Assembly: GCA_025153445.1 (NCBI GenBank)
Contig: JANZNS010000002.1
Location: 372,001 to 436,000, forward strand
Direction of reading: 5' to 3'
DNA: 64,000 nt
Source of the DNA: Marinobacter sp. BGYM27
Lineage (GTDB): Bacteria; Pseudomonadota; Gammaproteobacteria; Pseudomonadales; Oleiphilaceae
Part shown: one piece after another, positions 1,576 through 58,343 of the stretch
How positions within the stretch are numbered: position 1 is the stretch's first letter
Layout: each line of letters opens with the position of its first letter
Made by a program: the position numbers and the translations under genes
The notes under the pieces: generated by a model
Database searches by the model: none
The model's input: the letters and a program-made list of their open reading frames with translations, nothing else
What the model was told of the DNA's origin: nothing

Positions 1576-1606
1576 AACCGACGACAAAAATTTGTTTGAG
1601 GGAATA

Positions 1607-2989
1607 ATGAACGGTTTGGCAGAAAAACTTTATTTAAAATCTCCGGTGTTTATCCAAAATATTCTAGTCACTTTGTATGGAATTAAGCTATATAAAGAGC
1701 GTTATGGTAAGACTGAAAAAAAACATCTTAATATGCTTTTAGAAACAGAAAAGATGTCTGCCGAAATGATGCTTGAGTGGCAAGAACACAGATTTCTAAA
1801 AATCGCAAAAGATGCGATAGAGAATGTTCCTTTTTATCGAGATTGGGCTAAAGAAAACGGGATAAAATCGGCGGACATTTTAAGTATTGAAGATGTAAAA
1901 TTATTCCCTATTTTGAATAAAGAAAAGGTGAGAGCTAACCCTGAAAACTTTGTTTCTGAGAGCCATTCTAAAAAAACTTTATTTAAGCTTTACACAAGCG
2001 GAACAAGTGGATCACCTTTAACTGTCTATAGCGATAGTAACTCAAGAACGTTGCATTATGCTTTTTTCTCTAGACTAAGAAGTTGGTTTGGGTTAGGAAG
2101 GCGAAGCAGAAGGGCTACGTTATTTGGCCGTATCATAATGTTACCTGAATCAAATAGCCCGCCATTTTGGAGGTTTGATTATGCACAAAACAACCTTCTC
2201 ATGTCTTCCTATCACCTATCAGATAGTAATCTTTTGTATTATTATAAAAAGCTAAAAGACTATGATCCTTTAGAAATAATAGGTTATCCATCTAGCTTAT
2301 ACCTGATAGCTGAATACATAAATCGGAAAGGTTTGTCTAAATTAAATACGAAGTTAGTTATATCTACCGCAGAGACTCTAATGGAGTATCAAAGAGAGAG
2401 TATTGAAAAAGCTTTTGAAGGGCCGCTAGTCGATCAGTACGGATGTACAGAAATGGCTTTTTTTGCTTCTCAATGTGAATTTGGACGAATGCACTTTCAT
2501 CCAGAGCACGGCATTGTGGAGGTTATGGATTTAGGTCGAGCTGTTGTCGGTGCTCCTGGCTCCTTGGTTGTAACAGGTTTGGTTAATTCTGCTATGCCTC
2601 TTATTCGTTATGAAGTTGGCGATAGAGTTATAATATCGGAATCGATATGCGAGTGTAAGCGAAGTTTTCCAGTCATCGAGCAAGTTATTGGGAGAGTTGA
2701 TGACATAATTTACAGCCAAGAAGGTACTCCTGTTGGACGTTTAGATCCAATATTTAAAGGAGGTATTGGGATAAAAGCGGCAAAAGTATTGCAGCTAGAG
2801 AGTAGTGAAATAATAGTATATATAGAAGCGAGCAATGAATTTAATAATGAAAATGAGGCTATATTGGTTGCTGAGCTAAGAAAAAGAGTTGGCAGTAAGT
2901 TAGCTATAACAGTAAAGAGAGTTGATTGCCTTCCTAAGGATAGAAATGGAAAATTCAAAGCAGTCGAATCAAAATACAGCCCCCAGTAA
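1607..2989 (+). CDS. phenylacetate-CoA ligase-like (CapK/PaaK family) adenylate-forming enzyme
   Basis: A 460-residue member of the PaaK/CapK branch of AMP-dependent synthetases. The phosphate-binding loop is LYTSGTSGSPL, and YGCTEM is the later adenylate motif. The family activates carboxylates to acyl-adenylates; CapK-type members sit in polysaccharide clusters with unproven substrates. I prefer the ATG at 1607, which has GAGG (1598-1601) five bases upstream, over an in-frame TTG at 1592. It is strongly AT-rich and its 3' end overlaps the next glycosyltransferase by 44 bases. It may activate an acyl or amino-acid substituent for the EPS, which is an inference from context. Confidence 0.85.
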   Translation: MNGLAEKLYLKSPVFIQNILVTLYGIKLYKERYGKTEKKHLNMLLETEKMSAEMMLEWQEHRFLKIAKDAIENVPFYRDWAKENGIKSADILSIEDVKLFPILNKEKVRANPENFVSESHSKKTLFKLYTSGTSGSPLTVYSDSNSRTLHYAFFSRLRSWFGLGRRSRRATLFGRIIMLPESNSPPFWRFDYAQNNLLMSSYHLSDSNLLYYYKKLKDYDPLEIIGYPSSLYLIAEYINRKGLSKLNTKLVISTAETLMEYQRESIEKAFEGPLVDQYGCTEMAFFASQCEFGRMHFHPEHGIVEVMDLGRAVVGAPGSLVVTGLVNSAMPLIRYEVGDRVIISESICECKRSFPVIEQVIGRVDDIIYSQEGTPVGRLDPIFKGGIGIKAAKVLQLESSEIIVYIEASNEFNNENEAILVAELRKRVGSKLAITVKRVDCLPKDRNGKFKAVESKYSPQ

Positions 2990-4013
2990 AGTCATTCATG
3001 GGGTTCACTGGAAGCATTCTGGAATATATGAAGTGGTTCGAACGCTTTTAGATGAAGCAGAGCCTAGCAGGTTTAACCAAGATATGGTTGTGATAAATGA
3101 TTATAAGTTTGATTTTTTTTCGTTTATAAAGTTTGTTAAGCTATTGTTTTTAATTGTTCGTGGCAAGCAATTTTATCACGCACATTCTTTTTTATTATAT
3201 TTATTAGTTTTGTTTGCCTGGAGTAAAAAATCTGCCATAACTTTTCACAACGATTACCCTTATTTGACCGGGGTTGGGTTAAGGGATCGATTAAAACGTA
3301 GGTTGATTAGGTCTATAATAAAAATAAAATCACCAGTTGTAACTTGTGTCGGAAGAAACTTATCTAATAAAATAAGTTCAATATTTAATTGTGAAGTGAT
3401 TTTTATACAAAATCCAGTAAACAAAAAGTATATATCACAGTTCCAAAGAGAATATTCTGATGGTGCGGTTTTTGGAAGTGTGGGTAGGTTGGCCGACCAA
3501 AAGAATTACAGGCGACTAATAAAAGCATTTTCGTTCTATATGTCACACCTCATTTCCAGCAAAAAAAACGCCTATCTTTGCATAGCGGGCGAGGGCGATG
3601 AGAGAGATTTAATTGAGTCCAGTATTAAAGAATCTGGATTGGGAGATAATATTCGTTTAAAAGGTTTCGTAGATGATGTCCCACAGTTTTATGCTTCTAT
3701 AGATGTGTATATTTGTACTTCTCTATATGAGGGGTTTGGACTCTCGATCGTAGAAGCAATGCTTATGGGGAAGCCAGTTATTTCAACAAAAGTCGGTGTG
3801 TTTCTAGATTTTGATGAGTTTTACTATCTAAAAATAGATAATGGAAAAGATGAACGTTCTATTTTTAAAGCTATGAAAAAGTTCTCATCTCTTACACAGG
3901 AAGATATTATTATGATGATTGAATCCAATAAGCTATTGTGTACTAAGCTTTTTTCTCCCTCTCATATATTTAAGATCTATAGTGATTTGGTCTGGAGCTG
4001 CAGGAAAATTTAA
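2946..4013 (+). CDS. glycosyltransferase family 4
   Basis: A 355-residue GT4 enzyme. GSVGRLADQKNYRRLIKAF is the start of the donor-binding domain and SLYEGFGLSIVEAM carries the EX7E pair. The ATG at 2946 is chosen because AAGGA (2936-2940) lies five bases upstream; an in-frame TTG at 2922 lacks such a site. It overlaps the CapK-like gene by 44 bases, and its TAA shares a base with the ATG of the next gene, so the run is translationally coupled. Composition is very AT-rich. The N-terminal acceptor domain is divergent and the substrate is unknown. Confidence 0.87.
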   Translation: MENSKQSNQNTAPSKVIHGVHWKHSGIYEVVRTLLDEAEPSRFNQDMVVINDYKFDFFSFIKFVKLLFLIVRGKQFYHAHSFLLYLLVLFAWSKKSAITFHNDYPYLTGVGLRDRLKRRLIRSIIKIKSPVVTCVGRNLSNKISSIFNCEVIFIQNPVNKKYISQFQREYSDGAVFGSVGRLADQKNYRRLIKAFSFYMSHLISSKKNAYLCIAGEGDERDLIESSIKESGLGDNIRLKGFVDDVPQFYASIDVYICTSLYEGFGLSIVEAMLMGKPVISTKVGVFLDFDEFYYLKIDNGKDERSIFKAMKKFSSLTQEDIIMMIESNKLLCTKLFSPSHIFKIYSDLVWSCRKI

Positions 4014-4960
4014 TGATCGATTCCCCGTATGTATCGGTAATTGTTCCGATTTATAATGAAGAGAAATACGTTCGGAGTTGTCTTGAATCCTTGTTTTCTC
4101 AATGCTATCCGAAAGATCGATATGAAATTATAGTTGTCGATAATGGTTCAACTGATGATACGCACCAAATATTGGATGATATAGGTATCGACTATAAGGT
4201 TTTCATGGGCGGGAAAGTTGGTGCGGTAAGAAATTATGGAGAATCATTGGCTAAAGGGGACATTGTTTGTTTTTTGGACGCTGATTGTGTGGCGCCATTA
4301 GATTGGATAGTTAATGGTGTGAAGAATCTACAGGCCCCTGAAATAGGCGCTACTGGTGGAGCTTATTTGCTCAGGAGCAATCCCAATTGGGTTGAAAAAT
4401 CTTGGGTAATAAAAACCCCAGTGGAAAGTGAAGTGGTTGATCACTTAGTTGGTGGTAGTCTTTTTCTTCGTCGATCTGACTTTAATGATCTAGGTGGATT
4501 CGATGAAAAAATTAACGCTGGAGAGGATACAAAGCTTTCACACGAAATTTCGAAACGCGGTTACGTTTTATATCAGGATACTAAGTTGGCCGTAACTCAT
4601 TTAGGATACCCGACAAATATTTTTGATTTTTTAAAAAGGCAGTTTTGGCATAGCTCTAGTTTTTTTAAATCAAAAAAGAGTTGGCGTGACAGAACTTTTT
4701 TACTTACCCTTGTTTTTAGCGTATCTTTTGCGCTATTTATTTTGTTATCAATTTTTTCTCTATATTTTTATTCACTTTTTTGTTTTTTGTTTTTTGTTTT
4801 TGTGCCTGTTTTGTTTACTGTAAAAAAAGTTTGGTCGGTAGGTGTTGCTGACGTATCGCTGAATGTGCTGTTCGGAGCTTTGTTTTTAAATTTTCTTTAT
4901 TTCTTTTCTAGGTCTCTTGGTATGTGGATAGGGCTGGCTTTCGATCCATTTAAAAAATAG
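4013..4960 (+). CDS. glycosyltransferase family 2 with C-terminal membrane segments
   Basis: A 315-residue GT-A inverting glycosyltransferase. VIVPIYNEEKYVRSCLESLF opens the nucleotide-binding half, FLDADC holds the metal-binding DxD-type motif, and GEDTKLSHE corresponds to the catalytic-base region. Two or three hydrophobic segments at about 228-262 and 272-305 would anchor it in the inner membrane with the active site in the cytoplasm. The start overlaps the preceding stop (TAATG). A 163-base gap follows, containing an inverted repeat before a secreted-protein gene. Confidence 0.9.
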   Translation: MIDSPYVSVIVPIYNEEKYVRSCLESLFSQCYPKDRYEIIVVDNGSTDDTHQILDDIGIDYKVFMGGKVGAVRNYGESLAKGDIVCFLDADCVAPLDWIVNGVKNLQAPEIGATGGAYLLRSNPNWVEKSWVIKTPVESEVVDHLVGGSLFLRRSDFNDLGGFDEKINAGEDTKLSHEISKRGYVLYQDTKLAVTHLGYPTNIFDFLKRQFWHSSSFFKSKKSWRDRTFLLTLVFSVSFALFILLSIFSLYFYSLFCFLFFVFVPVLFTVKKVWSVGVADVSLNVLFGALFLNFLYFFSRSLGMWIGLAFDPFKK

Positions 4961-5020
4961 GATCGTCCACCTGATAAATTGGACTAAAGAGATTTTATTA
5001 ATGAAAAACAGGTATAAGTG

Positions 5021-5079
5021 CCCACTTTAACTGAACTACTAGTTGACGAAGTGTCTTAGTAGGTTATCTTTAAAGTGGG
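5021..5079 (+). promoter_or_regulatory. long imperfect hairpin in the leader of the secreted-protein gene
   Basis: CCCACTTTAA (5021-5030) is a perfect inverted repeat of TTAAAGTGGG (5070-5079). Inside it AACTACTA (5034-5041) pairs with TAGTAGGTT (5057-5065) with one bulged G. The result is a stacked 10 bp + 8 bp hairpin with a 15-base loop, ending 44 bases before the chosen ATG at 5124. There is no T-tract, so it is not a classical terminator. It could be an RNA leader structure or a protein-binding operator; function is unknown. Confidence 0.6.
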
Positions 5080-5123
5080 TTGATCAGAATATTCCGCGTA
5101 CGGTTTGTAAGGAGTGCTTAGTG

Positions 5124-6473
5124 ATGGCAGCTAAAAGTTCTGGTAAAGGTAGTTACCTTTTTTTTACGTCTATTGTAATTGGCTCTCTTTGCTCTCTGGG
5201 CGTCACAGCGGCACCTAAAATTTCGTCTGCAATAGTTTCCGGTAGCGGCGACGGTCAAATAGTTTCGATTGTTGGAGATGGGTTTGGGACTCGTGGATCC
5301 GCTCCCTTTCCCGTATTGTTCGACCTCGGTAGTGTGGCTTATGAAAATGGGAATGCTGATGAGAGGTCTCTTAAGCCTGGGGAGATACTCGAACTTGTGC
5401 GTCAGCCAGAAAAGAGTCAGGCGGAGGTTTGGGAGAAGCCTGCCACAGGGTCTGATTCTGGGCCAAAATCAGCGCTGCTAGTTGGAACCAAAAAAGGACG
5501 AGATGGTAAAGCTGGTGCTTTATACAGCCTTCGGGGGCTCAACTCGTTTCTGGGTTGGCCTCGTGCGTATGGAGGGAGCGACACCCCGGTTGATAACACG
5601 AAACTGTATTTAGCTTGGCAAATTAAAGTCAAGTACGATCCACGATACTACTGGGCGTTCTATCGTAAAAGCAGCTCAGGAGAATTTGTGCCAGGGGAGG
5701 AGGTTGTCCTGTCGAATGGGGGGACCGGTCAATTTATCGGAGTCGGTACTCTCGCCATAGGCAAGGGACTTCATCATTTTGAGTTCGACGGCGTAGCGAG
5801 TTCCTCAACGCTAAAAGGTCTTCAAGTGAAAGGGGTGCAATCAGGAGCTACAGCTATTTTCCCAGAAACTTCTACACCAAATACCGATAATTTTTACGTT
5901 TCCCCTGGCTCGAATAAATATCTTAGAGTTTGGGAAGATCCGAATGGTGTCCAAGGAACGAGGATTTCTTGGACTCAGGCTCAAATCCATAAAGATTGGA
6001 TAAGTGCTCCTGTCACTCCCAATGAATGGCACTTGATGGAGTTTTATCTTGATACACAAAAGCAGACTGTTCAAGCTTGGACAGATCGTGAATTGTTGGG
6101 AGTTATAGATGTATCGAATTCGCCGGCTTATAAAGGCCGGTGGAGCCCTACGGTCGCTTTGTTGGGCTTCAATGGCGCCTTGCAGGAGTTTCAAATGACA
6201 GAGATCGATGATATTTATATGGATGATCGTTTCTCCAGAATAGTTATTGGTGACAAACCTAGCTACAAAGATCTGGATGGATATGAACTTCAGTTACCTG
6301 TTGCGTGGAGTAATCAAAAAATAGATTTTAAATTAAACTTAGGTTCTATCCCCGTCGGGGAGAAGCGATTTTTATATGTTATTTCTGAAGATGGTTCAGT
6401 AAATGATATCGGATTTCCTCTCTGTGAAGACTGTAAGTCCCCACCCGCTGCAGTCCCACTAAGTATTGATTGA
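5124..6473 (+). CDS. secreted protein of unknown function in the EPS cluster
   Basis: The product is 449 residues from the ATG at 5124, which has AAGGAG at 5109-5114 nine bases upstream and starts a clear Sec signal peptide ending near VTAAP. A GTG at 5121 is the alternative. An upstream TTG at 5043 would put 27 charged residues before the signal and is rejected. After the signal comes a short beta-rich stretch with SIVGDGFG, resembling an IPT/TIG-like fold. Later come tryptophan-rich strands (NEWHLMEFYLD, QAWTDRELLG) like those of jelly-roll, laminin-G or polysaccharide-lyase domains. I do not recognise the family. It is secreted and sits among EPS genes, so binding or trimming of polysaccharide is plausible but unproven. 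Confidence 0.8.
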   Translation: MAAKSSGKGSYLFFTSIVIGSLCSLGVTAAPKISSAIVSGSGDGQIVSIVGDGFGTRGSAPFPVLFDLGSVAYENGNADERSLKPGEILELVRQPEKSQAEVWEKPATGSDSGPKSALLVGTKKGRDGKAGALYSLRGLNSFLGWPRAYGGSDTPVDNTKLYLAWQIKVKYDPRYYWAFYRKSSSGEFVPGEEVVLSNGGTGQFIGVGTLAIGKGLHHFEFDGVASSSTLKGLQVKGVQSGATAIFPETSTPNTDNFYVSPGSNKYLRVWEDPNGVQGTRISWTQAQIHKDWISAPVTPNEWHLMEFYLDTQKQTVQAWTDRELLGVIDVSNSPAYKGRWSPTVALLGFNGALQEFQMTEIDDIYMDDRFSRIVIGDKPSYKDLDGYELQLPVAWSNQKIDFKLNLGSIPVGEKRFLYVISEDGSVNDIGFPLCEDCKSPPAAVPLSID

Positions 6474-43883: not shown

Positions 43884-46472
<2,589 letters not shown>

Positions 46473-46645: not shown

Positions 46646-47488
46646 ATGAAGTTCACAGGTACCGACAAGTATGTAGCCACCGAAGATCTGCAAATGGCGG
46701 TAAACGCTGCGATCACGTTGCAGCGTCCATTGCTGATCAAAGGTGAGCCGGGCACTGGTAAAACCATGCTGGCCGAGGAGCTTGCAGAAGGTCTGGGAGC
46801 GCGCCTGATTACCTGGCACATCAAGTCTACGACCAAGGCTCAGCAAGGCCTGTATGAGTACGATGCGGTTTCGCGCCTGCGAGATTCGCAGCTCGGTGAC
46901 GAGAAGGTCAAGGATATCGGTAACTACATTGTCAAAGGCAAGCTGTGGGAAGCGTTTGAAGCTGATGATCAGGTCGTTCTGCTGATCGACGAGATCGACA
47001 AAGCTGATATCGAGTTCCCCAATGACTTGTTGCTGGAACTCGACCGCATGGAGTTCTACGTTTACGAGACGCAGCAGAAAGTTAAGGCCGAGAAGCGCCC
47101 GATCGTGGTGATCACCAGTAACAACGAGAAGGAGCTACCGGATGCTTTCCTGCGTCGTTGCTTCTTCCACTACATCACCTTCCCGGATGCGGAGACAATG
47201 AAGAGCATTGTCGATGTTCACTTCCCCAATGTGCAGCAGAACATTGTCCGTGATGCTCTTGAAGTCTTCTTCGACGTGCGCAAAGTGCCGGGCCTGAAAA
47301 AGAAACCCTCCACATCCGAACTGGTCGACTGGCTGAAGCTGTTGATGGCCGACGATCTGTCGGCAAAAATGCTGCACGACCGTGATTCTGCATCTGCCTT
47401 GCCTCCACTTTACGGCGCGCTCGTTAAAAACGAACAGGATGTTCATCTGCTGCAGAAACTCGCCTTTATGGCACGTCGCCGGAGTTGA
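46646..47488 (+). CDS. MoxR family AAA+ ATPase
   Basis: A 280-residue ATPase. Walker A is GEPGTGKTMLAEELAE, Walker B is VVLLIDEIDKAD, sensor 1 is VVITSNNEKELPDAFLRRC. MoxR proteins are chaperone-like ATPases that act on VWA-domain partners, often in metal insertion or envelope maturation. The next gene encodes a CoxE-like VWA protein and the previous one a membrane VWA protein, both candidate partners. AAGGATAGGA precedes the ATG. Target is unknown. Confidence 0.92.
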   Translation: MKFTGTDKYVATEDLQMAVNAAITLQRPLLIKGEPGTGKTMLAEELAEGLGARLITWHIKSTTKAQQGLYEYDAVSRLRDSQLGDEKVKDIGNYIVKGKLWEAFEADDQVVLLIDEIDKADIEFPNDLLLELDRMEFYVYETQQKVKAEKRPIVVITSNNEKELPDAFLRRCFFHYITFPDAETMKSIVDVHFPNVQQNIVRDALEVFFDVRKVPGLKKKPSTSELVDWLKLLMADDLSAKMLHDRDSASALPPLYGALVKNEQDVHLLQKLAFMARRRS

Positions 47489-47516
47489 TTTCGACGTTTC
47501 AGGTGAGGAGGGCACT

Positions 47517-48695
47517 ATGCTGATTGATTTTTTCATGGAGGTGCGCCGGGCGAAAATCCCGGCCAGCCTGCGTGAGTATCTGGACCTCGTAAATGCGCTG
47601 GAGCATCGTCTGGCATTTGCCGATATGGAGGAGTTTTATTATCTCTCCCGGCTATGCCTGGTAAAAGATGAGCGACATTACGACAAATTCGACCGCGCGT
47701 TCGATGCCTACTTCAAAGGCATTGAGAATCTTGATGAACTGATGAGTCAGTTGATACCCGAAGATTGGTTGCGTGCCGAGTTCGAGCGGCAGTTGAGCGA
47801 GGAAGACAAAGCCAAGATCGAGTCACTGGGCGGGCTCGAAGAGCTGATTGAAGCCTTCAAGGACCGTCTGGAAAACCAGAAAGAACGCCATCAGGGCGGT
47901 AATCGTCAGATCGGTACGGGGGGCACCTCGCCGTTTGGCGCCAATGGTTACAATCCCGAGGGCTTCCGGATCGGGCAAAAAGACGGTCGCCATGGTCGGG
48001 CAGTCAAGGTCTGGGAAAAGCGTGGATTCAAAGACCTGGACGACAGCATCACGCTGGGTATCCGTAACGTCAAAGTAGCGCTGCGACGACTCCGTAAATT
48101 TGCTCGACAGGGGGCCGCAGATCAGCTCGACATGGATGACACCATAAGGTCGACTGCACGCAATGCGGGCTACCTTGATCTGAAAATGGTACCGGAGCGG
48201 CACAATTCGGTAAAAGTGCTGATTTTCTTTGATGTCGGCGGGTCAATGGACCCACACGTCCGGGTCTGCGAGGAGCTGTTCTCAGCGGCCAGGATGGAAT
48301 TCAAGCACATGGAGTACTTCTACTTTCATAATTTTGTTTATGAAAGCGTTTGGAAGAACAACGTGCGCCGCATGAACGAAACGACCAGCACCTTCGATAT
48401 TCTCCATAAATATACACCAGACTATAAGGTGATATTTGTCGGCGATGCGAGCATGGCGCCGTATGAGATTTCCCATCCCGGAGGCTCCATTGAGCACTGG
48501 AATGAAGAAGCCGGTGCCGTCTGGTTCCAGCGTATTCAGGATCACTTCCGAAAGGTGGTATGGATGAACCCTTTACCGGAGAGCTATTGGGGCACCGGGG
48601 GATCGGTTGGTATGACACGTCAGTTGACGTCAGATCACATGTACCCGCTGACCGTAGAAGGTCTCGAATCCGCGATGCGTTACCTCAGTAAGTAA
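47517..48695 (+). CDS. CoxE-like VWA domain protein
   Basis: The product is 392 residues from the ATG at 47517, which has GGAGG seven bases upstream; an earlier in-frame start at 47382 lies inside moxR and is rejected. MLIDFFMEVRRAKIPAS and AFDAYFKGIEN are family blocks. The C-terminal VWA domain has a metal site FFDVGGSMDPH (DxGxS). It is the usual partner of MoxR ATPases and lies 28 bases after moxR. Cytoplasmic, with no signal peptide. Confidence 0.9.
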   Translation: MLIDFFMEVRRAKIPASLREYLDLVNALEHRLAFADMEEFYYLSRLCLVKDERHYDKFDRAFDAYFKGIENLDELMSQLIPEDWLRAEFERQLSEEDKAKIESLGGLEELIEAFKDRLENQKERHQGGNRQIGTGGTSPFGANGYNPEGFRIGQKDGRHGRAVKVWEKRGFKDLDDSITLGIRNVKVALRRLRKFARQGAADQLDMDDTIRSTARNAGYLDLKMVPERHNSVKVLIFFDVGGSMDPHVRVCEELFSAARMEFKHMEYFYFHNFVYESVWKNNVRRMNETTSTFDILHKYTPDYKVIFVGDASMAPYEISHPGGSIEHWNEEAGAVWFQRIQDHFRKVVWMNPLPESYWGTGGSVGMTRQLTSDHMYPLTVEGLESAMRYLSK

Positions 48696-49254: not shown

Positions 49255-49764
49255 ATGCGTTTGACCGCTCTGTTTCTCCGTGCATTATTGATCAGTGTGC
49301 TGTCGGCTCCGGCGATGTCAGATTCCCTGGATAGCGACATTGCGGAACTGAAAGGTGAAGTCGCTGCGCTCAACCACTCTCTGTTTGAACTCGAGGAAGA
49401 CATTCTTCATCCGGCCAATACTCAAGTGGCTGTTTACCTCTCATTTGCTGCCCGCGAATACTTTGTTCTCGATTCCGTCGAGCTGTCGATTGATGGTCAT
49501 CCGGCTGTTTCCCATCTCTATACGGAGCGCGAACGTCAGGCATTAAAGCAGGGCGGAGTGCAGCAGTTGTATCTGGGCAATCTTTCTGCTGGTGAGCACA
49601 AAATCGATGCCGTATTCAACGGTCAGGGCGCCAACGATCACTACTATCGCAAGGATGCGAGCTTCAACGTTCAGAAAACGGGTGAGAAGGCCCAGTACGA
49701 ATTAATCCTCGATGCCAAGGCGCCGGCGTTCGAGCCGGCTTTCCGCATCAAGGAATGGGAATAG
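49255..49764 (+). CDS. small secreted protein, first gene of the TPR/ExbBD operon
   Basis: A 169-residue protein. A signal peptide (1-22, MRLTALFLRALL to AMS) is followed by a short coiled coil (SDIAELKGEVAALNHSLFEL) and a beta-rich domain. The C-terminal part contains LGNLSAGEHKIDAVFNGQG, a typical AraC-like/periplasmic beta-sandwich phrase. I do not recognise a named family. The next gene may overlap its stop. Role in the envelope machine is unknown. Confidence 0.8.
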   Translation: MRLTALFLRALLISVLSAPAMSDSLDSDIAELKGEVAALNHSLFELEEDILHPANTQVAVYLSFAAREYFVLDSVELSIDGHPAVSHLYTERERQALKQGGVQQLYLGNLSAGEHKIDAVFNGQGANDHYYRKDASFNVQKTGEKAQYELILDAKAPAFEPAFRIKEWE

Positions 49765-49775
49765 GCGCTTCTTTG

Positions 49776-51605
49776 ATGTCTGGTGTCACTCCCTTTGTTT
49801 TTCGTCTCGCTCTTGTGCTTGCGGGCTCTCTGCTATCAGCAGGCATCTTGGCCGGCGACAAACCGGAGTCGATCAGGGTGGGTCTGGCTCAGTATGCATT
49901 GGTGGTGGGTAAACCCACTGATGCACTGCATTGGGTTTATGGGCTGCAGTCGGATGACGCAGGACTTGTTCGGGGCCAGGCATACGCTGATTTGGGGCTC
50001 CCTGCGCGATCAGAAACAGAACTTGAATCTCGGATCAAGGGCGATACACCGGCCAACGCAAGTGCGCGGCTGACATTGGCGAAGGAAAAGCGTCAACTCG
50101 GCAAACAGGACGAGGCACTGGCGCTGTTGAAGCAATTGCACCGCTCTCAGCAGGGTGCCGTTGGTCAGGAGGCAAGTTTCCTGCTTGCTGAAAATGCAAT
50201 TGCCTCCGGTGCATTCGATCTTGCTGGCAAAGTGCTCGGTGCCTCTACGGGAGGATACTGGACAGCGCTGGGCTATCTCAATCTGGCCACCGCCTATGCC
50301 CGGCAGGATAAGGATACGGCACGCAGCCTCATCGCCTTGCGGGTGGCCAGATCAATGCTCGACGACAATCCGGATGCCGGGCTGACGGAGTTGATTCAGC
50401 GAATTCAGATCACCGCCGGTTATCTGGCGTTGCGCAGTGATGATCCTGAGAAGGCCATCAGCTTTCTCAACAAGGTCGCCCTCAAAGGATATCGAACCCC
50501 TCAGGCACTCTATCTCCACGGCCTCGCAGAAGCCCAAAAAGAAAACTATCGCGCTGCCATGCAATCGTGGCATCGGGCCCGCAAATTTCCACTTGGTTTT
50601 CCCGGGGCAGCCGAGGCATGGCTTGGCATGGGGCGCGGTTATGACGAGTCGGGTTATCTCGGGCTCGCCGGGGAAGCCTATCTCTCAGCGATAGCGGCCT
50701 TTCAGGGCGAAGTGGTCACGCTTGATACTTTGATGAAACAGATCCGGCAAGAGGGCGGATACCATTCAATGGTGCTCTCGGCCCGCTCGGAAGATGTCGA
50801 ATGGTTTCTGGCTGATAGCAAAACCCTGACCCAGCCCAGACTTGCTTACCTGATGCATTTCATGGAGGACGCCAGCGCCCAGAAAGCGGTACGGCGAGTG
50901 GCCTCACTTGATGCTATGGAGCATGAATTACAGTCCCGCAGTGCTGACCTTGTCGTGTTTCGCCGCATGCTGGAAAACCGGCTGCGCACGGTCAGTGGTG
51001 CCTCGGGGGCAGGCGACCTCGAGCGGCTCGGCCATAAAATTGAAGTGCTCGCCGACCGGGAGGCTGCATTGCGCACCCGGCTGAATGAAGCTGAAAGCGG
51101 CGATGGGGCAGCCATCGCAAGCGGTGAGACGGCAAAGAAACTTGCACAGGTGCGTGCGCTAAAAGCCAAGGGGAATCTGACTGCTGAAGAGTCAGCACGG
51201 GTTGAACGTCTTGAAGGTGTGCTGAAATGGCAGGCGCAGGAGCAATATGATCTCGCGCGTCGCGAGCATGAAAAAAACCTGGACGTTATTGCCCGTTCTC
51301 TGGCCGCAGCAAGATCTGGATACGACAAATTCGAAAGTGAACGGCGATCGGCACCTGACAGGTTCAGATCGCTACTGGGGCGCGTTGAATCAGCTCAAAA
51401 AGACGTAGACCGAAAACTGGATCGACTGGCAACAGTCAAGCAACGTAGTGAAGAGGTCCTGGATGCGGCATTGCTTGAATTTCTGCAGGAACAGAGCCGT
51501 GTCATGACCGCCCACCTCGACCGCAGTGAACAGCAAATCGCCCACCTATACGAATACCTCGCGGTCTCCAGTGCTACCGGCCAGAAGCAGGAGGCAAGCC
51601 AGTGA
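49776..51605 (+). CDS. periplasmic TPR protein with C-terminal coiled coil
   Basis: The product is 609 residues from ATG 49776, which begins a good signal peptide (SGVTPFVFRLALVLAG to GILAG); an ATG at 49755 inside the previous gene is possible. Residues about 30-320 are TPR-like helices (ALALLKQLHRSQQG, YLGLAGEAYLSAIAAFQG). The C-terminal ~230 residues are Glu/Arg-rich and coiled-coil (LEVLADREAALRTRLNEAE-like). It overlaps the next gene by four bases (GTGA). By order it could match a Glt TPR component of Myxococcus; that is an inference. Confidence 0.83.
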   Translation: MSGVTPFVFRLALVLAGSLLSAGILAGDKPESIRVGLAQYALVVGKPTDALHWVYGLQSDDAGLVRGQAYADLGLPARSETELESRIKGDTPANASARLTLAKEKRQLGKQDEALALLKQLHRSQQGAVGQEASFLLAENAIASGAFDLAGKVLGASTGGYWTALGYLNLATAYARQDKDTARSLIALRVARSMLDDNPDAGLTELIQRIQITAGYLALRSDDPEKAISFLNKVALKGYRTPQALYLHGLAEAQKENYRAAMQSWHRARKFPLGFPGAAEAWLGMGRGYDESGYLGLAGEAYLSAIAAFQGEVVTLDTLMKQIRQEGGYHSMVLSARSEDVEWFLADSKTLTQPRLAYLMHFMEDASAQKAVRRVASLDAMEHELQSRSADLVVFRRMLENRLRTVSGASGAGDLERLGHKIEVLADREAALRTRLNEAESGDGAAIASGETAKKLAQVRALKAKGNLTAEESARVERLEGVLKWQAQEQYDLARREHEKNLDVIARSLAAARSGYDKFESERRSAPDRFRSLLGRVESAQKDVDRKLDRLATVKQRSEEVLDAALLEFLQEQSRVMTAHLDRSEQQIAHLYEYLAVSSATGQKQEASQ

Positions 51606-54472
51606 GACGACTGATCGCAAGGTCCATCCTGATTGCCCTGATATCCACTGGCGCCAGTGCGCAGGAGTCTGGCGGGAACTTTCAGATTAATCTTGGAGAG
51701 GATGGCAAAACTATCGGTGAAATGCGGCCGGTATTCCTTGAAATGTCCTCGCAGGCGCTTCCTGCGATCTCTTTGAAGGAAGTCGCCCGCCGATACCAAC
51801 GGCTGTTTGAGGAGTCTGAAGAACCAGAGGTTCGAATTGACGCTTTGCACCGTCTCACCAATCTGCATTCCATTGGTGGTGAAGGGCTTGATCTGTCGCC
51901 GGAGCAGGAGGAGGTCATCTATCGCGAAGCACTCAAAAGCTACGAGATGATCGTAAAGGCAGGGCGTTATCAGGGCAGACTCGACGAATTGCTGTATCAG
52001 ACAGCCAAAGCCTACGCTTTTATTGGCAACGACGAGCAGTCCGTCCAGCGACTCAAGCAACTTGTGGGCTTGTACCCGACATCAAACCTGGCACCTGAAG
52101 CCCGTTTCAGGATTGCGGAATCCGCCTTCTCTGAGGAGCACTTCAGTGAGGCCGAGCAAGCCTACGCCCAGGTTATCGGATCAGATGCCCGAGCTGATCT
52201 GCAGGGCAAGGCTATCTACATGAAAGGTTGGAGCCAGTACAAGCAGGATAAGCTTGGTCAGGCGAGCCACACTTTTCTGACCGTGCTTGATGACTACTAC
52301 GCTCAATCTGACGGCTTTACGGCGTTGGATGGGGGAGCTGAGGCACTGGTTAACGATACTTTCCGGATTCTCGCCCTGATGGCGTCTCGTACCGGTGGTG
52401 CGGCTGCAATTGATCGCATGATTGCCGCGGAAGGGGGCAAGCCCTATGACTACTTGTTGTACGACCGGTTGGGAGACTACTACCTGGCGAATGAGCGCTA
52501 TACCGACAGTGTTCAGGTCAATCAGTATTTTATAGACAACAATCCTGCCCATCCGCGGGCGCCCGCAATGAGAGCGCAGATTGTTTCGGTCTGGGAAGCT
52601 GGTGGGTTTGCTGCCGAAGCAAGAGCGGCGCGTACCGATTTTGTGGCGGCCTACGATCAGCCCGCAACCTATGGCGGGCTTTCAGAAACTGAGCAGGCTC
52701 AGTGGCGCAGCCTGGCCGATCAGGTCGGCTCATCCCTATATGCTGAGGCCCAGGCGACAGGTAGTCCATCCCCTGAGGTAACCAGCACCTTCGCATCAGC
52801 AGGTGTCATATATGATCGTCTGGCGGATGTGAGTAGCGGAATCGAAGCGCCTCAAAAAATTGGAGAACAGCGACGGCTTGCGGGTGATGCCTGGCTTCAG
52901 GCAGGCAGAGAACAAAGGGCCATTGAAGCATTTGAAAAGGCGGGCTACGAACAGCCTGGATATGACGGCGCTGCAGATTCCGCTTGGGCGGCAGTTGCTC
53001 TTTATCAGGCATCGGCGCGTCAATCCGTTGCGGAAGCAGGTTCCGTTGAGCCACTTGATGTGATGGTGGCAGCCCTCGACAGGTTCGCCACGGCCTACCC
53101 TGGTGATAGCCGTTTGCCCGCTGCCGAGGCGGATCTGGCCAACCAACTACTCACTGCTGGCGACAATCCGCGGGCACAGCGCTTTGCCGAGGCTGCAGTC
53201 GCACACCCGAAAGCAAGCTACAAAACACTGCTGGCAGGCTGGCTGGTAATAGGACAGACGGAGTTTGACGCGTCGCATTACGATAAATCAGAACAGGCGT
53301 ATCGACAGGCGCTTGCATCGGTAAAAGCAGATTCGAACGTAAAGCCAGAACGCGAAGCTGAAATCCGTTCACAACTCGCGTTGAGTATATACCGACAGGG
53401 TGAAGCTGCAGCCCAACAGGATGAGGTGGACGCCGCTGTTGGGCATTTCCAGCGGGTTGCCGGGGTTGGCGGCGAGCAGGGGCTCACGATAGGGGCGGCG
53501 CTTGAGGCGTCAGTTGTGCTTTTAAAAGCAGAGCGTTGGCAGCCCGCTATCGACCAGCTTCAGGATTTTCGATCGCGCTATCCAGAACAAGCCCAAGCCA
53601 ACAATGTTGATGAAAAACTTGTATACGCCTATAAAGCATCGGGCCAATACGATCTCGCGGCCAACGAAATTCTGGAGCGCTCGGCTGATAGCGCCGATCC
53701 CTGGCCGGCCCGCATTATGGCAGCGGGCTTGCTTGAGCAGGCAGGAAGCAACGGGCGCGCAAACATGATTTACGGTGATTACCTCGATCAGGCCAGCGAC
53801 CCGGCTTCAGCTGAGGAACATGCCCGACAGCAGTCATTACGCCAAAAGCTGATAGAGGCGGACGGCGTCAATATCCCAAGCCCCCGGTTGGAGTCTTTGG
53901 TAGACACCGAGCTTGCAAGCGAGTGGCACTCAGATAAAACGCTGACCTGGGCTGCAGCAGCAGCGTTGGTGCTTGCAGCCGATGAATCCAGTCGTTATGC
54001 CGATATCCGGCTTACGCTGCCACTGAGCCAGACTCTGGCTGCAAAAAAAGCTGCACTGCAGAAAGCGCTGGATCGTTATCAGCAGGCAGAGTCGCTCGGT
54101 GGGAGTGAGGTCAAATCGCAGGCTTTGTTTGGTCGGGCTGAACTCTACCGCGTTCTGGCGCGGGACGTGATGTCCTCAGAACGCCCCTCTAACTTGACCG
54201 AGCTGGAGCTGGCGCAATACGACGTGCTGCTGGAAGAGCAAGCCTATCCTTTTGAAGAAAAAGCAATCGATCTCCATGCAGCCAATCATCAGCAGATTGC
54301 ATCCGGAGTCTATAACGACTGGGTTCAGAAAAGTATGGATGCGCTGGCGGCGCTCTATCCGGCACGTTACAGCCGTGAATCCCACTGGATGCCATGGAGC
54401 GGCGACAGCGCGCAGTCGGCCAATAGCATCGTGACGAAGGAGGTGATGCATGCATCAAATTCGGGATCGTAA
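51602..54472 (+). CDS. large periplasmic TPR protein (GltD-like position)
   Basis: A 956-residue secreted protein with GTG start and signal peptide (MRRLIARSILIAL to GASA). Almost the whole length is helical TPR-type solenoid, with units such as PEARFRIAESAFSEEHFSEA and EQAYAQVIGSDARADLQGKA. Proteins of this kind bridge periplasm and outer membrane in Agl-Glt-like machines. It overlaps the following lipoprotein gene by 23 bases. No enzymatic motif is seen. Confidence 0.85.
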   Translation: MRRLIARSILIALISTGASAQESGGNFQINLGEDGKTIGEMRPVFLEMSSQALPAISLKEVARRYQRLFEESEEPEVRIDALHRLTNLHSIGGEGLDLSPEQEEVIYREALKSYEMIVKAGRYQGRLDELLYQTAKAYAFIGNDEQSVQRLKQLVGLYPTSNLAPEARFRIAESAFSEEHFSEAEQAYAQVIGSDARADLQGKAIYMKGWSQYKQDKLGQASHTFLTVLDDYYAQSDGFTALDGGAEALVNDTFRILALMASRTGGAAAIDRMIAAEGGKPYDYLLYDRLGDYYLANERYTDSVQVNQYFIDNNPAHPRAPAMRAQIVSVWEAGGFAAEARAARTDFVAAYDQPATYGGLSETEQAQWRSLADQVGSSLYAEAQATGSPSPEVTSTFASAGVIYDRLADVSSGIEAPQKIGEQRRLAGDAWLQAGREQRAIEAFEKAGYEQPGYDGAADSAWAAVALYQASARQSVAEAGSVEPLDVMVAALDRFATAYPGDSRLPAAEADLANQLLTAGDNPRAQRFAEAAVAHPKASYKTLLAGWLVIGQTEFDASHYDKSEQAYRQALASVKADSNVKPEREAEIRSQLALSIYRQGEAAAQQDEVDAAVGHFQRVAGVGGEQGLTIGAALEASVVLLKAERWQPAIDQLQDFRSRYPEQAQANNVDEKLVYAYKASGQYDLAANEILERSADSADPWPARIMAAGLLEQAGSNGRANMIYGDYLDQASDPASAEEHARQQSLRQKLIEADGVNIPSPRLESLVDTELASEWHSDKTLTWAAAAALVLAADESSRYADIRLTLPLSQTLAAKKAALQKALDRYQQAESLGGSEVKSQALFGRAELYRVLARDVMSSERPSNLTELELAQYDVLLEEQAYPFEEKAIDLHAANHQQIASGVYNDWVQKSMDALAALYPARYSRESHWMPWSGDSAQSANSIVTKEVMHASNSGS

Positions 54473-55115
54473 GTGCTTTATTGGTGGCCACTGCGCTGAC
54501 GCACTCAAGGCTGCGGCGATGGGCCTTGTGGTGCTTGTTTTCGCCGGTTGCGCGGCGGGACCTTCACCGCAAAGTGGTGATGCAACAACTGAAGTAACTG
54601 CGGCTGCTACTTCGGCAAAGGTGCGTCCGGAGCCGGCAGCGATGACCCCGGTTCAGCAAAAGCAATATGACGAAGCGCGCCAGCGTGCTTCCTCCGGTCA
54701 AACGGAAGAAGCCATTGCCATTTTGGCTGCATTGCAGGCTGAGCGCCCTGATCTCGCGGCGGTGTCGGCGCGGCTGGCCTGGCTGCAACAACAACACGGC
54801 AATGTTGAACAGGCTATTGAATTGAATAAAGAGGCGCTGGACACGGATCCAGGCAATGAGATGGCGACCAATAATCTGGCGTTGTTGTTACAGTCGAAGG
54901 GAGAGTTCAAGCAGGCCCGTGAATACCTGGATCAGGGGCTGAGCTGGCATCCTGATTCACCAAAACTGCACTACAACCTGGCTGTCCTTTCGGAGCTTTA
55001 CCTTCTGGATCTGCCGTCGGCATTGCAGCACTATCAGCGTTATCAGACCCTGGAGCCAAACGGCAGCGAACAGGTTAAGGGCTGGATTGCTGACTTGCAG
55101 AGGCGCCTTAACTGA
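54450..55115 (+). CDS. TPR lipoprotein (GltE-like position)
   Basis: A 221-residue protein with lipobox VFAGC (Cys34), so probably outer-membrane anchored. Residues about 75-215 are TPR repeats (EAIAILAALQAERPDLAAV, NNLALLLQSKGEFKQAREYL). The signal region is unusually long; a start at the Met24 codon is possible. It overlaps the preceding gene, and its TGA shares a base with the next ATG. Confidence 0.85.
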   Translation: MHQIRDRKCFIGGHCADALKAAAMGLVVLVFAGCAAGPSPQSGDATTEVTAAATSAKVRPEPAAMTPVQQKQYDEARQRASSGQTEEAIAILAALQAERPDLAAVSARLAWLQQQHGNVEQAIELNKEALDTDPGNEMATNNLALLLQSKGEFKQAREYLDQGLSWHPDSPKLHYNLAVLSELYLLDLPSALQHYQRYQTLEPNGSEQVKGWIADLQRRLN

Positions 55116-55537
55116 TGAGTTTGAATCAAATTCTGTTAAATCAGCTGAGTGCCGGAACCCGGGGCCATTTCCTTGCGCTCGATCGCGTTTTTCACAGGCT
55201 GTTGCTGGCATGCTTGCTGTCAGTTTGGGGCACAGGCACCCCTGCGTTGGCCCAGGAAGCAAACGCTAACGCGCAGCCACCTGAGTCAGCCGGAGCACCC
55301 GTTGCCCCGCCGGTTGCCCTGACAGTAGAAGGCATATCGGTGCGGGCCAGTGACGACTATCCCCGGGTGCTTAATATATTGCCCTGGCAGGCGCCCTCGG
55401 TTTCAACCCGCTCACGGGATCCGTTGAGTATGGAGCCGTCAGGACTGCTCGATCCGGTTGATCCCGGTGTTCTGCAACGCCATCAGCAATTCAGAAAAAC
55501 ACTGGATCCGTTAGCTGAGCCAGTGTCTCAGCCATAA
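55115..55537 (+). CDS. small exported protein of the TPR/ExbBD operon
   Basis: A 140-residue protein with an N-terminal membrane or signal segment at about 28-47 (LLLACLLSVWGTGTPALA) and a Pro-rich remainder with no recognised domain. It is coupled to the lipoprotein gene (TGATG). Small unassigned proteins at this position also occur in Agl-Glt-like clusters. Function unknown. Confidence 0.75.
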   Translation: MSLNQILLNQLSAGTRGHFLALDRVFHRLLLACLLSVWGTGTPALAQEANANAQPPESAGAPVAPPVALTVEGISVRASDDYPRVLNILPWQAPSVSTRSRDPLSMEPSGLLDPVDPGVLQRHQQFRKTLDPLAEPVSQP

Positions 55538-55570
55538 TCGATAACATCAGCAAACCCCCGGAGCAACGTC

Positions 55571-56212
55571 ATGCTTGATACTCTTATCCGCTTTTTCCAG
55601 AACGGCGGCGCCTTTATGTACCCAATCGCAGTGGTGCTGGTGATCGGGTTGGCGATTGCGCTGGAGCGCTTTATCTATCTGGGGAAAGTACGCCGTTCAA
55701 ATCGCGCCGCCTTCGAGCAAGGGATTTTGCCTTTGCTACGCAAGCAGGACTATAAGCGGGCAATGCAGGCTGCCAATAGCTCTGACAGTGCAATTGCTTC
55801 AATTCTGGGGGCAGGTATCGCCCGATTGCTGGGTAATCACCGTCGAGAGGAGGTGGAGTACGCGATGGAGGAGGGCCTGATGGAAGTGCTGCCAAGATTG
55901 GAAAAGCGCACTCAGTATCTTGCTACGCTGGCGAACATCTCAACATTGTTGGGGTTGCTTGGCACCATTATCGGGCTTATTGCGGCGTTTACAGCCGTCG
56001 CCAGTGCTGATCCGGCAGAAAAGGCGTCGTTGTTGTCCCAGAGTATCTCCGTGGCGATGAACACGACTGCCTTCGGCCTGATGTCCGCGATTCCGCTACT
56101 GATATTTCATGCCTTGCTGCAAACCCGAACCAATGAACTGGTGGATAGTTTCGAGATGGCTGGCGTGAAATTGCTCAACACCGTGTCCGGTCAGGCATCA
56201 ACGCCGCTCTGA
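55571..56212 (+). CDS. ExbB/TolQ/MotA-type proton channel subunit (AglR-like)
   Basis: A 213-residue inner-membrane protein with three helices at about 14-36, 122-146 and 160-185. TLLGLLGTIIGLIAAF and NTTAFGLMSAIPLLIFHALL are the ExbB/TolQ pore-helix signatures. It should form the pentameric proton channel that drives the machine. GGAGCAACGTC precedes the ATG. The two following genes encode its ExbD-type partners. Confidence 0.94.
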   Translation: MLDTLIRFFQNGGAFMYPIAVVLVIGLAIALERFIYLGKVRRSNRAAFEQGILPLLRKQDYKRAMQAANSSDSAIASILGAGIARLLGNHRREEVEYAMEEGLMEVLPRLEKRTQYLATLANISTLLGLLGTIIGLIAAFTAVASADPAEKASLLSQSISVAMNTTAFGLMSAIPLLIFHALLQTRTNELVDSFEMAGVKLLNTVSGQASTPL

Positions 56213-56240
56213 TGACGGTCACGACCCGGAGCCACAAAGC

Positions 56241-56825
56241 ATGAGACGCAGACACCGTCGGCTGCACACCAGCCCGGAACTGGATATCACCGCGTTCATG
56301 AATCTGATGATCGTGCTGGTGCCCGTCCTGTTGCTGGGCATGGTGTTCACCCAAGTCCGAATGATTGATCTGGATTTCCCTGGAATGGCGAGCGGGCAAG
56401 CGCCTGATCCTGATGCATTTCAGCTTGAGGTGTTGCTGGTGCCAACCGGGCTGAGGGTTGCGGACTCAGAGCGCGGATTAATCAAGCAGTTGCCAGTGAG
56501 CGCAGGAGGTGATTATGACTTTAGCGGTCTCCAGACGGTGCTTAAAGGCATCAAAAGCCGTATGCCTGAGAAAACCGATTTAACATTACGCGTAGCGCCC
56601 GACATTGATTATCAGGTGCTGATCAAGGCGATGGATGCTGTGCGTTCCTATCCTGATGTCATCGCTGCAAGTGTGGTTCAAGCTGAATTGTTTCCAGACG
56701 TGGCATTGGGTGATGCACCTGAGAATGCCGAACTGTCGCAGGCGGTAGACGTTTTACAGGGCAGGGCTGGTGGCCAAAACATCGCGCTGTCAGGGTTAGC
56801 CGGTACGGTGGAGGTCGCACGATGA
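56241..56825 (+). CDS. ExbD/TolR-type subunit 1 with Asn in place of the proton-binding Asp
   Basis: A 194-residue protein with one N-terminal helix and a periplasmic domain. The helix motif is LDITAFMNLMIVL. Against E. coli ExbD (INVTPFIDVMLVL) it aligns without gaps, and the essential Asp is Asn21 (AAT, 56301-56303). The periplasmic domain (DLTLRVAPDIDYQVLIKAMD) is typical. It ends inside the start of the second ExbD (ATGA). Confidence 0.92.
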   Translation: MRRRHRRLHTSPELDITAFMNLMIVLVPVLLLGMVFTQVRMIDLDFPGMASGQAPDPDAFQLEVLLVPTGLRVADSERGLIKQLPVSAGGDYDFSGLQTVLKGIKSRMPEKTDLTLRVAPDIDYQVLIKAMDAVRSYPDVIAASVVQAELFPDVALGDAPENAELSQAVDVLQGRAGGQNIALSGLAGTVEVAR

Positions 56826-57328
56826 AAACCTCACGGCGAGCCCAGCGAATGCAGCGCCACTATGGCCGAATGCACCGTGCGGGTGGGCTGAACCTGGTGT
56901 CGTTGATGGACATTTTTACCATTCTGGTTTTCTTCCTGATGGTGAACTCGTCCGATGTAAAAGTGATGCAGCAATCCTCTGACGTGGCATTGCCAAAGTC
57001 TTCGTCCGAAAAGCCAGGACAGGAAACCCTGACAATTGAAGTCACGACAAAAGCGGTTATGGTCCAGGGACGTCAGGTGGCATCCTTGTCTGATGGAGTG
57101 GATGAAAATGGGCACCTCAAAGGCCTGCTGACAGAGTTGAATTACCGAAAAGCCCGACAGGCAGACATTCCGCAAAGCGGCCTCGAAATCACAGTGATGG
57201 CCGACAGAAGCACCGAGTACAGGCAATTACGCCAGATTATGCAGACCTGCGTCGATGCCGATTATCGAAGGATCAAATTAGCAGTAGAGCACCAGCCTGG
57301 TGCCGCAGTGGAGGCGGCTAATGGTTGA
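56822..57328 (+). CDS. ExbD/TolR-type subunit 2 with intact Asp
   Basis: A 168-residue single-helix protein. The helix motif LNLVSLMDIFTILVFFLM keeps the proton-carrying Asp30. The periplasmic domain includes LEITVMADRSTEYRQLRQI. It overlaps subunit 1 by four bases and the AgmX-like gene by eight, which points to stoichiometric synthesis and a heteromeric ExbD pair. Confidence 0.93.
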   Translation: MKTSRRAQRMQRHYGRMHRAGGLNLVSLMDIFTILVFFLMVNSSDVKVMQQSSDVALPKSSSEKPGQETLTIEVTTKAVMVQGRQVASLSDGVDENGHLKGLLTELNYRKARQADIPQSGLEITVMADRSTEYRQLRQIMQTCVDADYRRIKLAVEHQPGAAVEAANG

Positions 57329-58343
57329 CGGTGCAGTGGCGAAGCCACCCGCCAGGAGCCCTTCGGCACGGGAAAGTGTCAGGCTTGAGATACCAGCGAA
57401 TACGACACGCCTACCCTGGAGCAGCGAGCCAGGCGAAAGCCGACGCCTGATCATCTGTCTGTTCGTGGTGTTGTTATTAACCGCACCCCTGGCATTAATT
57501 ATTCCGTTTACTGACGTGCCAGAGCTTGATCGTGAAACGCTGGAGAAAGTGCCGGCTCAGCTGGCCCGCTTGATTGAGGCCAAACCTGAACCAGAGAAAC
57601 CGAAGCCGGTTCCAGTCGAACCGGTTGCGGAACCGGTCCCTGAGCCAAAGCCGGATCCTGTACCGGAACCTGATGTCGCAAAGGCTCCGGAACCGACCCC
57701 AAAACCGGTTAAACCTGCTCCGCCCAAGGAAAATCAGACGGTACAGCAGGCTCGCGAAGTGGCTGCAAAGTCCGGCTTAATGGCGCTTCAGACTCAGCTT
57801 TCAGATATGCAATCCATGACATCTTCTGCGCCAGTGCAAAGGATCACGGCTAATGTTGATGATGCGTCCGCGACATCGGTACCTGACCAGACAGCTAAAG
57901 CTGATGTGCTTCAGGGTAATGGTCCAGTCAAAGATAGCCGCGGCCCGACTGAGAATGTAGCCGTTGCCAGTCACGACGTTCGCGAAATCGCGGTTGCCAA
58001 AGCAGAGCCTGCGCCAAAACCCCAACCAAAGGCAGCCGCTAAAAGCGGGCCTGGTGAGCGCTCTATGGCCAATATAAGAAAGGTGTTTGATCAGCAGAAA
58101 TCATCACTGTTTTCTCTGTATAACCGGGAGTTGCGGCAGAATCCTATGCTTGCCGGTGAAGTGATGCTGGAAATTACGATTGAGCCCAATGGCCAGGTGT
58201 CCCATTGCGAGATCGTGAGTTCGGAGCTGGGCAATACAGCGCTGGAGAGTAAAATAGTGAACCGGGTGCGCTTGTTTAATTTCGGCGCGGCTCAAGTTGA
58301 GCGACGGCAGGTCAGATTCCCGATCGACTTCCTGCCGTCCTGA
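57321..58343 (+). CDS. AgmX/PglI C-terminal domain protein (GltG/TonB-like)
   Basis: The product is 340 residues from the ATG at 57321, which has GGAGG six bases upstream; a GTG at 57300 is less likely. A single helix near 43-63 (LIICLFVVLLLTAPLALII) is followed by a Pro/Glu/Lys-rich spacer and a C-terminal AgmX/PglI domain (GEVMLEITIEPNGQV, RQVRFPIDFLPS). This is the TonB-like energy-transducing arm that would reach across the periplasm. It is the last gene of the operon. The family occurs in Myxococcus motility proteins. Confidence 0.88.
   Translation: MVDGAVAKPPARSPSARESVRLEIPANTTRLPWSSEPGESRRLIICLFVVLLLTAPLALIIPFTDVPELDRETLEKVPAQLARLIEAKPEPEKPKPVPVEPVAEPVPEPKPDPVPEPDVAKAPEPTPKPVKPAPPKENQTVQQAREVAAKSGLMALQTQLSDMQSMTSSAPVQRITANVDDASATSVPDQTAKADVLQGNGPVKDSRGPTENVAVASHDVREIAVAKAEPAPKPQPKAAAKSGPGERSMANIRKVFDQQKSSLFSLYNRELRQNPMLAGEVMLEITIEPNGQVSHCEIVSSELGNTALESKIVNRVRLFNFGAAQVERRQVRFPIDFLPS

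Follow-up and report, generated by a model that had tools for sequence, protein, structure and literature searches.

The window analyzed here, a 64,000-nucleotide stretch of Marinobacter sp. BGYM27 (contig JANZNS010000002.1, positions 372,001 to 436,000 of the forward strand), contains a nine-gene operon (positions 49255–58343, + strand) encoding an ExbB-type motor subunit, two ExbD proteins, TPR proteins and a TonB-like arm. Sequence comparisons support an arrangement of the Agl-Glt type rather than a TonB system for siderophores or a Tol-Pal system. The operon is real and well conserved, and its likeness to Agl-Glt is correct yet already known as a kind, because the core complex of Luciano 2011 has the same gene set. 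The operon most likely specifies a trans-envelope force machine that is driven by the proton motive force and handles outer-membrane lipoprotein cargo. A split Asn/Asp axle in the motor and an association of related copies with haem/flavin partners are new leads.

The original prediction of nine plus-strand genes, with their boundaries, order and domains, is borne out by open reading frame (ORF), Pfam and NCBIfam checks; signal peptides, lipoboxes and transmembrane helices were called by eye. The first gene, g1 (49255–49764), encodes a secreted 169-residue protein with no Pfam or NCBIfam match. It is followed by g2 (49755–51605; 616 residues), a TPR-like α-solenoid with subsequent long helices that is GltC-like by position only, and by g3 (51602–54472), an exported TPR protein of 956 residues with Pfam TPR_6, YfiO and TPR_18 matches, GltD-like again by position only. 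g4 (54450–55115) codes for a TPR lipoprotein that is GltE-like by position, and g5 (55115–55537) for a small exported protein with the conserved motif P.VLyIlPWQ.P (consensus of 75 members). Pfam searches with g1, g2 and g5 returned nothing at E ≤ 0.01, and g2 finds weak NCBIfam matches only, far under the cut-offs. The motor is encoded by B (55571–56212), whose ExbB/AglR-like product matches Pfam MotA_ExbB, and by the ExbD genes D1 (56241–56825) and D2 (56822–57328), which match Pfam ExbD and occupy the AglQ and AglS positions. The last gene, X (57300–58343), encodes a GltG-like protein with one transmembrane helix, a proline-rich arm and an AgmX/PglI (TonB-like) C-terminal domain, the latter passing the cut-off of NF033768 (66 bits; cut-off 40). 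Translation of X probably starts at the ATG at 57321 (residue 8 of the annotated frame, behind GGAGG) rather than at the GTG at 57300.

Most genes had been described as joined by overlaps. We find GTGA at g2/g3, TGATG at g4/g5 and ATGA at D1/D2, together with overlaps of 10 bases (g1/g2) and 23 bases (g3/g4), but g5/B and B/D1 are separated by short gaps of 33 and 28 bases, respectively. A promoter and terminator scan returned sites no commoner than in shuffled sequences. AlphaFold models were calculated from alignments led by the window sequence (42 of 71 sequences for g1, 33 of 67 for g2). The g1 model has an N-terminal helix and a transthyretin-like β-sandwich (predicted local distance difference test, pLDDT, 90.5), and the g2 model an α-solenoid and then long helices, of which the final one spans 118 residues (pLDDT 87.5). 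Foldseek returned no match for the g1 model at E ≤ 1e-3, and its best VIA-align rows (Z 8–10) belong to sandwiches of the transthyretin and PepT2 types, whose fold is common and uninformative on function.

In a tree of B proteins from 41 of the 118 loci that contain a B-type segment, the core B proteins form one group (support 93/81) apart from the TolQ-like, two ExbB-like and three MotA-like proteins of the same genome; the branches of five of these six comparison proteins are long, which leaves the exact position of the root uncertain. The operon proteins also miss the equivalog cut-offs for TolQ (65.3 of 221 bits), TolR (40.7 of 127.3), ExbB TIGR02797 (40.0 of 206.2), ExbB2 TIGR02805 (41.5 of 135.35) and ExbD TIGR02803 (17.1 for D1 and 17.5 for D2, of 152.95). 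A sequence search of solved structures matches B to TolQ and ExbB only and gives a single match for X (E 0.085). The window operon thus uses the same motor families as TonB-ExbB-ExbD and Tol-Pal and likewise encodes a C-terminal domain of TonB-like type, but its B protein is separate in the tree and the equivalog cut-offs are missed. The genome encodes its own TolQ-TolR pair and two further ExbB-ExbD systems at separate loci, with a ninth PF01618 match on contig C13. We saw no receptor, TolB or Pal gene among the few neighbors viewed, though no systematic search for them was made. It is therefore extremely improbable that the operon serves in uptake or in envelope integrity as a TonB- or Tol-Pal-type system, which the shared ExbB, ExbD and TonB_C families might indicate. 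The tree and the missed cut-offs agree with the original prediction of an Agl-Glt-type machine rather than an iron uptake system; its proposed ExbB phylogeny places core B with neither the ExbB-like nor the TolQ-like proteins of the genome.

According to the sections of Luciano 2011 (PMC3169522) covered here, aglRQS and gltC/D/E/G form a single-locus core complex (the group B genes) in Gammaproteobacteria, two Marinobacter are named among the genomes with duplications, and the function of the core is unknown. The window operon likewise holds AglR-, AglQ-, AglS-, GltC-, GltD-, GltE- and GltG-like genes in one locus (GltC, GltD and GltE by position and TPR content only), and we found nothing in those sections that separates the two. 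Wartel 2013 (PMC3858216), in the part covered, likewise describes the core as occurring by itself in many Gammaproteobacteria and suggests that it may represent a basal machine for transport. The original prediction had called this machine undescribed for the lineage, which holds for its function and fails for the complex. Core function is left open in the covered parts of both papers, and we found no later answer among the matches listed for the open-licence literature.

Luciano 2011 (PMC3169522, sections covered) sees the origin of gliding in this core, and the window operon shares two ExbD-type motor proteins, a TPR lipoprotein and a GltG-like arm with both Agl-Glt and Agl-Nfs of Myxococcus xanthus. 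A gliding or surface-motility machine resembling Agl-Glt, with the same kind of motor and TPR proteins, is nevertheless very improbable. The same sections judge motility by the core alone unlikely (PMC3169522). g4 reaches 27.5 of 225 bits with the GltE model NF033758 and the GltG cut-off is missed as well (39.7 of 650 bits); by the NCBI measure, these are therefore not gliding-machine equivalogs. The genome also contains three MotA/PomA-like stator genes, so that the organism probably swims.

A GTDB contig scan with B as query yielded at least 575 relatives, of which we took the best 80 as loci. All seven key genes (g1, g3, g4, B, D1, D2 and X) are present in 55 of the 80 and are colinear on one strand in 55/55, the conserved synteny that the original prediction had proposed as a check; at least one gene was uncalled in the other 25, a group in which contig ends, ORF choice and thresholds are pooled as causes. 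Marinobacter accounts for most of the closest loci by B identity, and the window copy groups with Marinobacteraceae both in the B tree and in a concatenated tree. Using the D1 profile, we detected the machine in 64 of 276 Gammaproteobacteria genomes (completeness of at least 90% requested), with 74 copies in total. It occurs in eight genomes of a phylum-wide sample of 199 at E ≤ 1e-6, 8/8 in the class of the window. Myxococcota sequences are absent from the 80 loci (best of at least 575), and tblastn of plasmids with B gave no match at E ≤ 1e-20. A second copy, absent from the original prediction, lies on contig C17 of the same genome; the core is thus present in Marinobacter and in other Gammaproteobacteria, and at times duplicated, as in the Luciano 2011 core. 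Two genomes of the window's family (G336 and G395) have no copy at E ≤ 1e-6, and the machine may therefore be dispensable there.

In ExbD and TolR, an aspartate in the transmembrane helix binds the proton. D1 has an asparagine at this site (Asn-21, bases 56301–56303) and D2 retains the aspartate (Asp-30, bases 56909–56911). The asparagine is found in 114/114 D1 segments, with a 115th, Asp-containing segment left out as a cross-hit to D2 of locus L074, and the aspartate in 113/113 D2 segments, leaving out 21 Asn segments (D1 cross-hits by motif) and one fragment; the window and its own genome appear more than once in these counts. The same Asn/Asp pair is present in 4/4 loci of a third Marinobacter copy (see below). 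Two threonines of B, which we take to be the pore threonines, are conserved in 120 of 121 aligned segments, a set that may include other ExbB-type proteins; the remaining segment is a gapped fragment. In the M. xanthus system, both AglQ and AglS carry a conserved aspartate (PMC9389320, part covered) and the D28N mutation of aglQ abolishes function (PMC3858216, part covered), whereas D1, the positional counterpart of AglQ, naturally carries Asn. The matches listed for the open-licence literature contain no account of such an Asn/Asp ExbD pairing, and neither the pair nor the haem/flavin partners described below are mentioned in the sections of Luciano 2011 (PMC3169522) covered.

Sister copies of the operon are associated with genes for a diheme HZS-alpha-like lipoprotein, small outer-membrane barrels, a redoxin, DUF4266, DUF3570 and ApbE. 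Upstream of the copy on C17 (copy 2), and on the same strand, we find DUF3570, DUF4266, a redoxin, two small barrel proteins (one SH3) and a 900-residue HZS_alpha/β-propeller lipoprotein with two CxxCH motifs. Just beyond this set lie a LamG protein (two CxxCH), a one-CxxCH protein, a protein with a twin-arginine-like signal but no Pfam match, and ApbE. Three of these genes stand in a row at C17:88860–94104 (860–6104 of locus L097), namely those for the one-CxxCH protein, the two-CxxCH LamG lipoprotein and the 537-residue protein with the twin-arginine-like signal. DUF3570 is flavinylated by ApbE, and the function of ApbE-DUF3570 clusters is uncertain (Meheust 2021, PMC8238504, part covered). 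The ApbE-DUF3570-DUF4266-thioredoxin clusters of that study resemble the surroundings of copy 2, which adjoins DUF3570, DUF4266, a redoxin and ApbE; the DUF3570 tied to the core machine is a divergent form, and the main text of that study gives no match for exb, agmx or tpr.

DUF3570 occurs in 73 of the 276 genomes, and 53 of the 73 also have the core against 16.9 expected (Fisher 4e-29), counts in which short second match segments were left out and four high-scoring partial matches were classed as full-length. The association resides in the divergent form (match starting at model position ≥90), which is found in 46 genomes, 43 of them with the core against 10.7 expected, that is, in 43/64 core genomes versus 3/212 others; adding the partial matches back as divergent gives 43/47 with the core. 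Genomes with full-length DUF3570 only show no significant link (10 with the core, 6.3 expected, p 0.06). When counted by family, the divergent link holds in 26/29 families against 7.2 expected, with the total of 154 families read from the highest family number, and it holds by genus as well. HZS_alpha is present in 43/276 genomes, 39 with the core against 10.0 expected (7e-26), corresponding to 39/64 core genomes versus 4/212 others and to 25/28 families. A divergent DUF3570 shares the contig with 37 of 49 HZS_alpha places, every one at 3.0–5.6 kb, and is missing from the contig for the other 12. Around the core itself, DUF3570 lies within 25 kb of 19 of the 74 copies, 12 of those at 7.5–9.2 kb upstream on the same strand.

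In the third Marinobacter copy (copy 3), an HZS-alpha-like gene directly follows X and two barrel genes (SH3-barrel and barrel) are divergent from g1, both in 4/4 regions fetched (a fifth genome, G469, is not among them); the copy 3 HZS-alpha-like lipoproteins retain two CxxCH motifs. A concatenated tree of 33 loci (quick method) groups the window copy with the copies in MoxR context and sets copy 2 next to a Hahella copy; copy 3 falls on the opposite side, together with Alteromonadaceae and Cellvibrionaceae. This separate placement does not suggest recent tandem duplication of the copies. In Cellvibrionaceae, gspL-M-N genes (labels by eye only) lie upstream of the core and were set aside.

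We compared core copies and HZS-alpha-like genes in the 30 genomes behind 30 of the 80 loci, plus the window's own genome for HZS-alpha, counting a match that was broken or interrupted as a single gene. The number of HZS-alpha-like genes equals the number of core copies minus one in 19/19 Marinobacteraceae genomes (18 named records and the window's own genome, whose family is inferred). A divergent DUF3570 lies 7.5–8.2 kb upstream of copy 2 in 8 of these 19. The three genomes with copy 1 and copy 3 (G460, G467 and G469) lack DUF3570, as do six of the seven single-copy Marinobacteraceae, the seventh (G472) having only a full-length DUF3570. Within its family, the window copy is the one without an HZS-alpha partner.

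These associations suggest, tentatively, that standalone cores position, or do mechanical work on, redox assemblies of the outer membrane consisting of an HZS-alpha-like diheme lipoprotein and a flavinylated DUF3570, with a single-Asp, asymmetric axle in the motor and with the window copy as the ancestral, cargo-general form. We regard this proposal as possible yet somewhat doubtful, and several observations weigh against it and against the main explanation given below. Co-occurrence is an association and not a mechanism, species are not independent, and the divergent class of DUF3570 was set after the matches had been seen. There is no DUF3570 within 25 kb on the same contig for 55/74 core copies, many of these contigs being short, and 25/64 core genomes have no PF18582 match and 11/64 no DUF3570. 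The flavinylation motif of DUF3570 at Marinobacter copy 2 (12436–13686 of L092; also L058, L059, L078 and L079) reads SAAS, not [ST]GA[ST], whereas Alteromonadaceae have SGAS. Copies minus one holds in only 6/12 genomes outside Marinobacteraceae, the exceptions being G475, G485, G486, G488 and G489, with one copy and one HZS-alpha-like gene each, and G480 with two of both. The window copy has no redox partners nearby, and the single-copy Marinobacteraceae are without an HZS-alpha-like gene in 7/7 cases, so the machine itself needs no such partner. An explanation of the window copy by the DUF3570/HZS-alpha module was rejected on the evidence of these single-copy genomes. In addition, an ExbB-ExbD-ExbD-TonB-like operon on contig C14 of the same genome (5076–7457 of L140) has Asp in its first ExbD and Asn in its second. 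The Asn/Asp pairing is thus not unique to the core machine and may be a more general trait of systems with two ExbDs. The C14 operon adjoins VgrG-like and LysM-like genes (labels by eye).

Upstream context could be assessed for 69 of the 80 loci (g1 first, enough upstream sequence), with cluster labels taken from Pfam scans of no more than two members per cluster. We find MoxR/VWA in 35 loci, MoxR/VWA with a redoxin in 4, DUF3570 in 12, ApbE in 12 (directly upstream), a redoxin alone in 1 and other genes in 5; a redoxin without DUF3570 is thus upstream in 5/69. The window copy has the conserved upstream neighbors MoxR-type AAA ATPase (46646–47488, + strand; a putative association) and VWA_CoxE protein (47382–48695, + strand), and a FadD-like gene (label by eye) downstream. 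An 862-residue VWA protein with a transmembrane helix and a long acidic tail (both by eye) is encoded at 43884–46472 and is conserved upstream of MoxR in many Marinobacter loci. The window copy could belong to a MoxR-VWA assembly system, in which the AAA ATPase and VWA protein would act first, maturing an envelope protein for placement by the motor. MoxR-VWA genes are indeed upstream in 39/69 loci, from Marinobacteraceae, Hahellaceae, Oleiphilaceae and Oceanospirillaceae, and in 4 of these 39 a redoxin lies between VWA and g1, two of them with SH3 and barrel genes. However, VWA and g1 are 559 bases apart in the window, the shared gene order, including the FadD-like gene, may reflect mere descent, and MoxR is absent from this place in other lineages. 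We consider such a system rather unlikely.

The window also contains an exosortase-type polysaccharide locus (418–21443, one strand), with glycosyltransferases, a polysaccharide deacetylase, Wzy- and Wzx-like proteins, an asparagine synthase and an EpsH-type exosortase (of 10 ORFs scanned, all but 2 gave a match). Together with the precedent of Agl-Nfs, which acts on the spore coat polymer (PMC3858216, part covered), this would fit a machine that moves or wraps extracellular polysaccharide. The polysaccharide genes stop ∼28 kb before g1, however, and this role appears improbable to us. Upstream of g1, the fetched flanks extend for ∼6 kb, and a minority of the flanking genes are annotated. The motility or polysaccharide export role put forward in the original prediction is unsupported, the recurrent partners of related copies being predicted haem/flavin envelope proteins; gliding-specific genes were not searched.

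Taken as a whole, the data are probably best explained by a standalone Agl-Glt-type core, with a proton-driven motor, the X arm and outer-membrane lipoprotein cargo. In the inner membrane, B, probably as a pentamer, and a D1-D2 axle would make up the proton-driven motor, with stoichiometry and heterodimer inferred. The axle would be asymmetric, with one protonation site, because the proton-binding Asp is present on D2 only. From family and anatomy, X would be a TonB/GltG-like arm that passes force through the peptidoglycan to periplasmic g1, g2 and g3, with the TPR lipoprotein g4 as the outer-membrane end. The family may thus act on outer-membrane or surface lipoprotein complexes and not on siderophore receptors. 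For the window copy, our weak guess is a different and more general envelope cargo, perhaps matured by MoxR-VWA.

The Asn/Asp pair bears on the stepping of 5:2 motors, as it predicts one protonation site per axle and not two. The haem/flavin partners of the sister copies provide a concrete guess at what such machines handle. Core function becomes testable in marine bacteria that are not pathogenic, because in Marinobacteraceae each additional copy is matched by one additional partner gene. If the proposed redox role is true, uncharacterized DUF3570/ApbE redox clusters would be tied to a force-generating machine.

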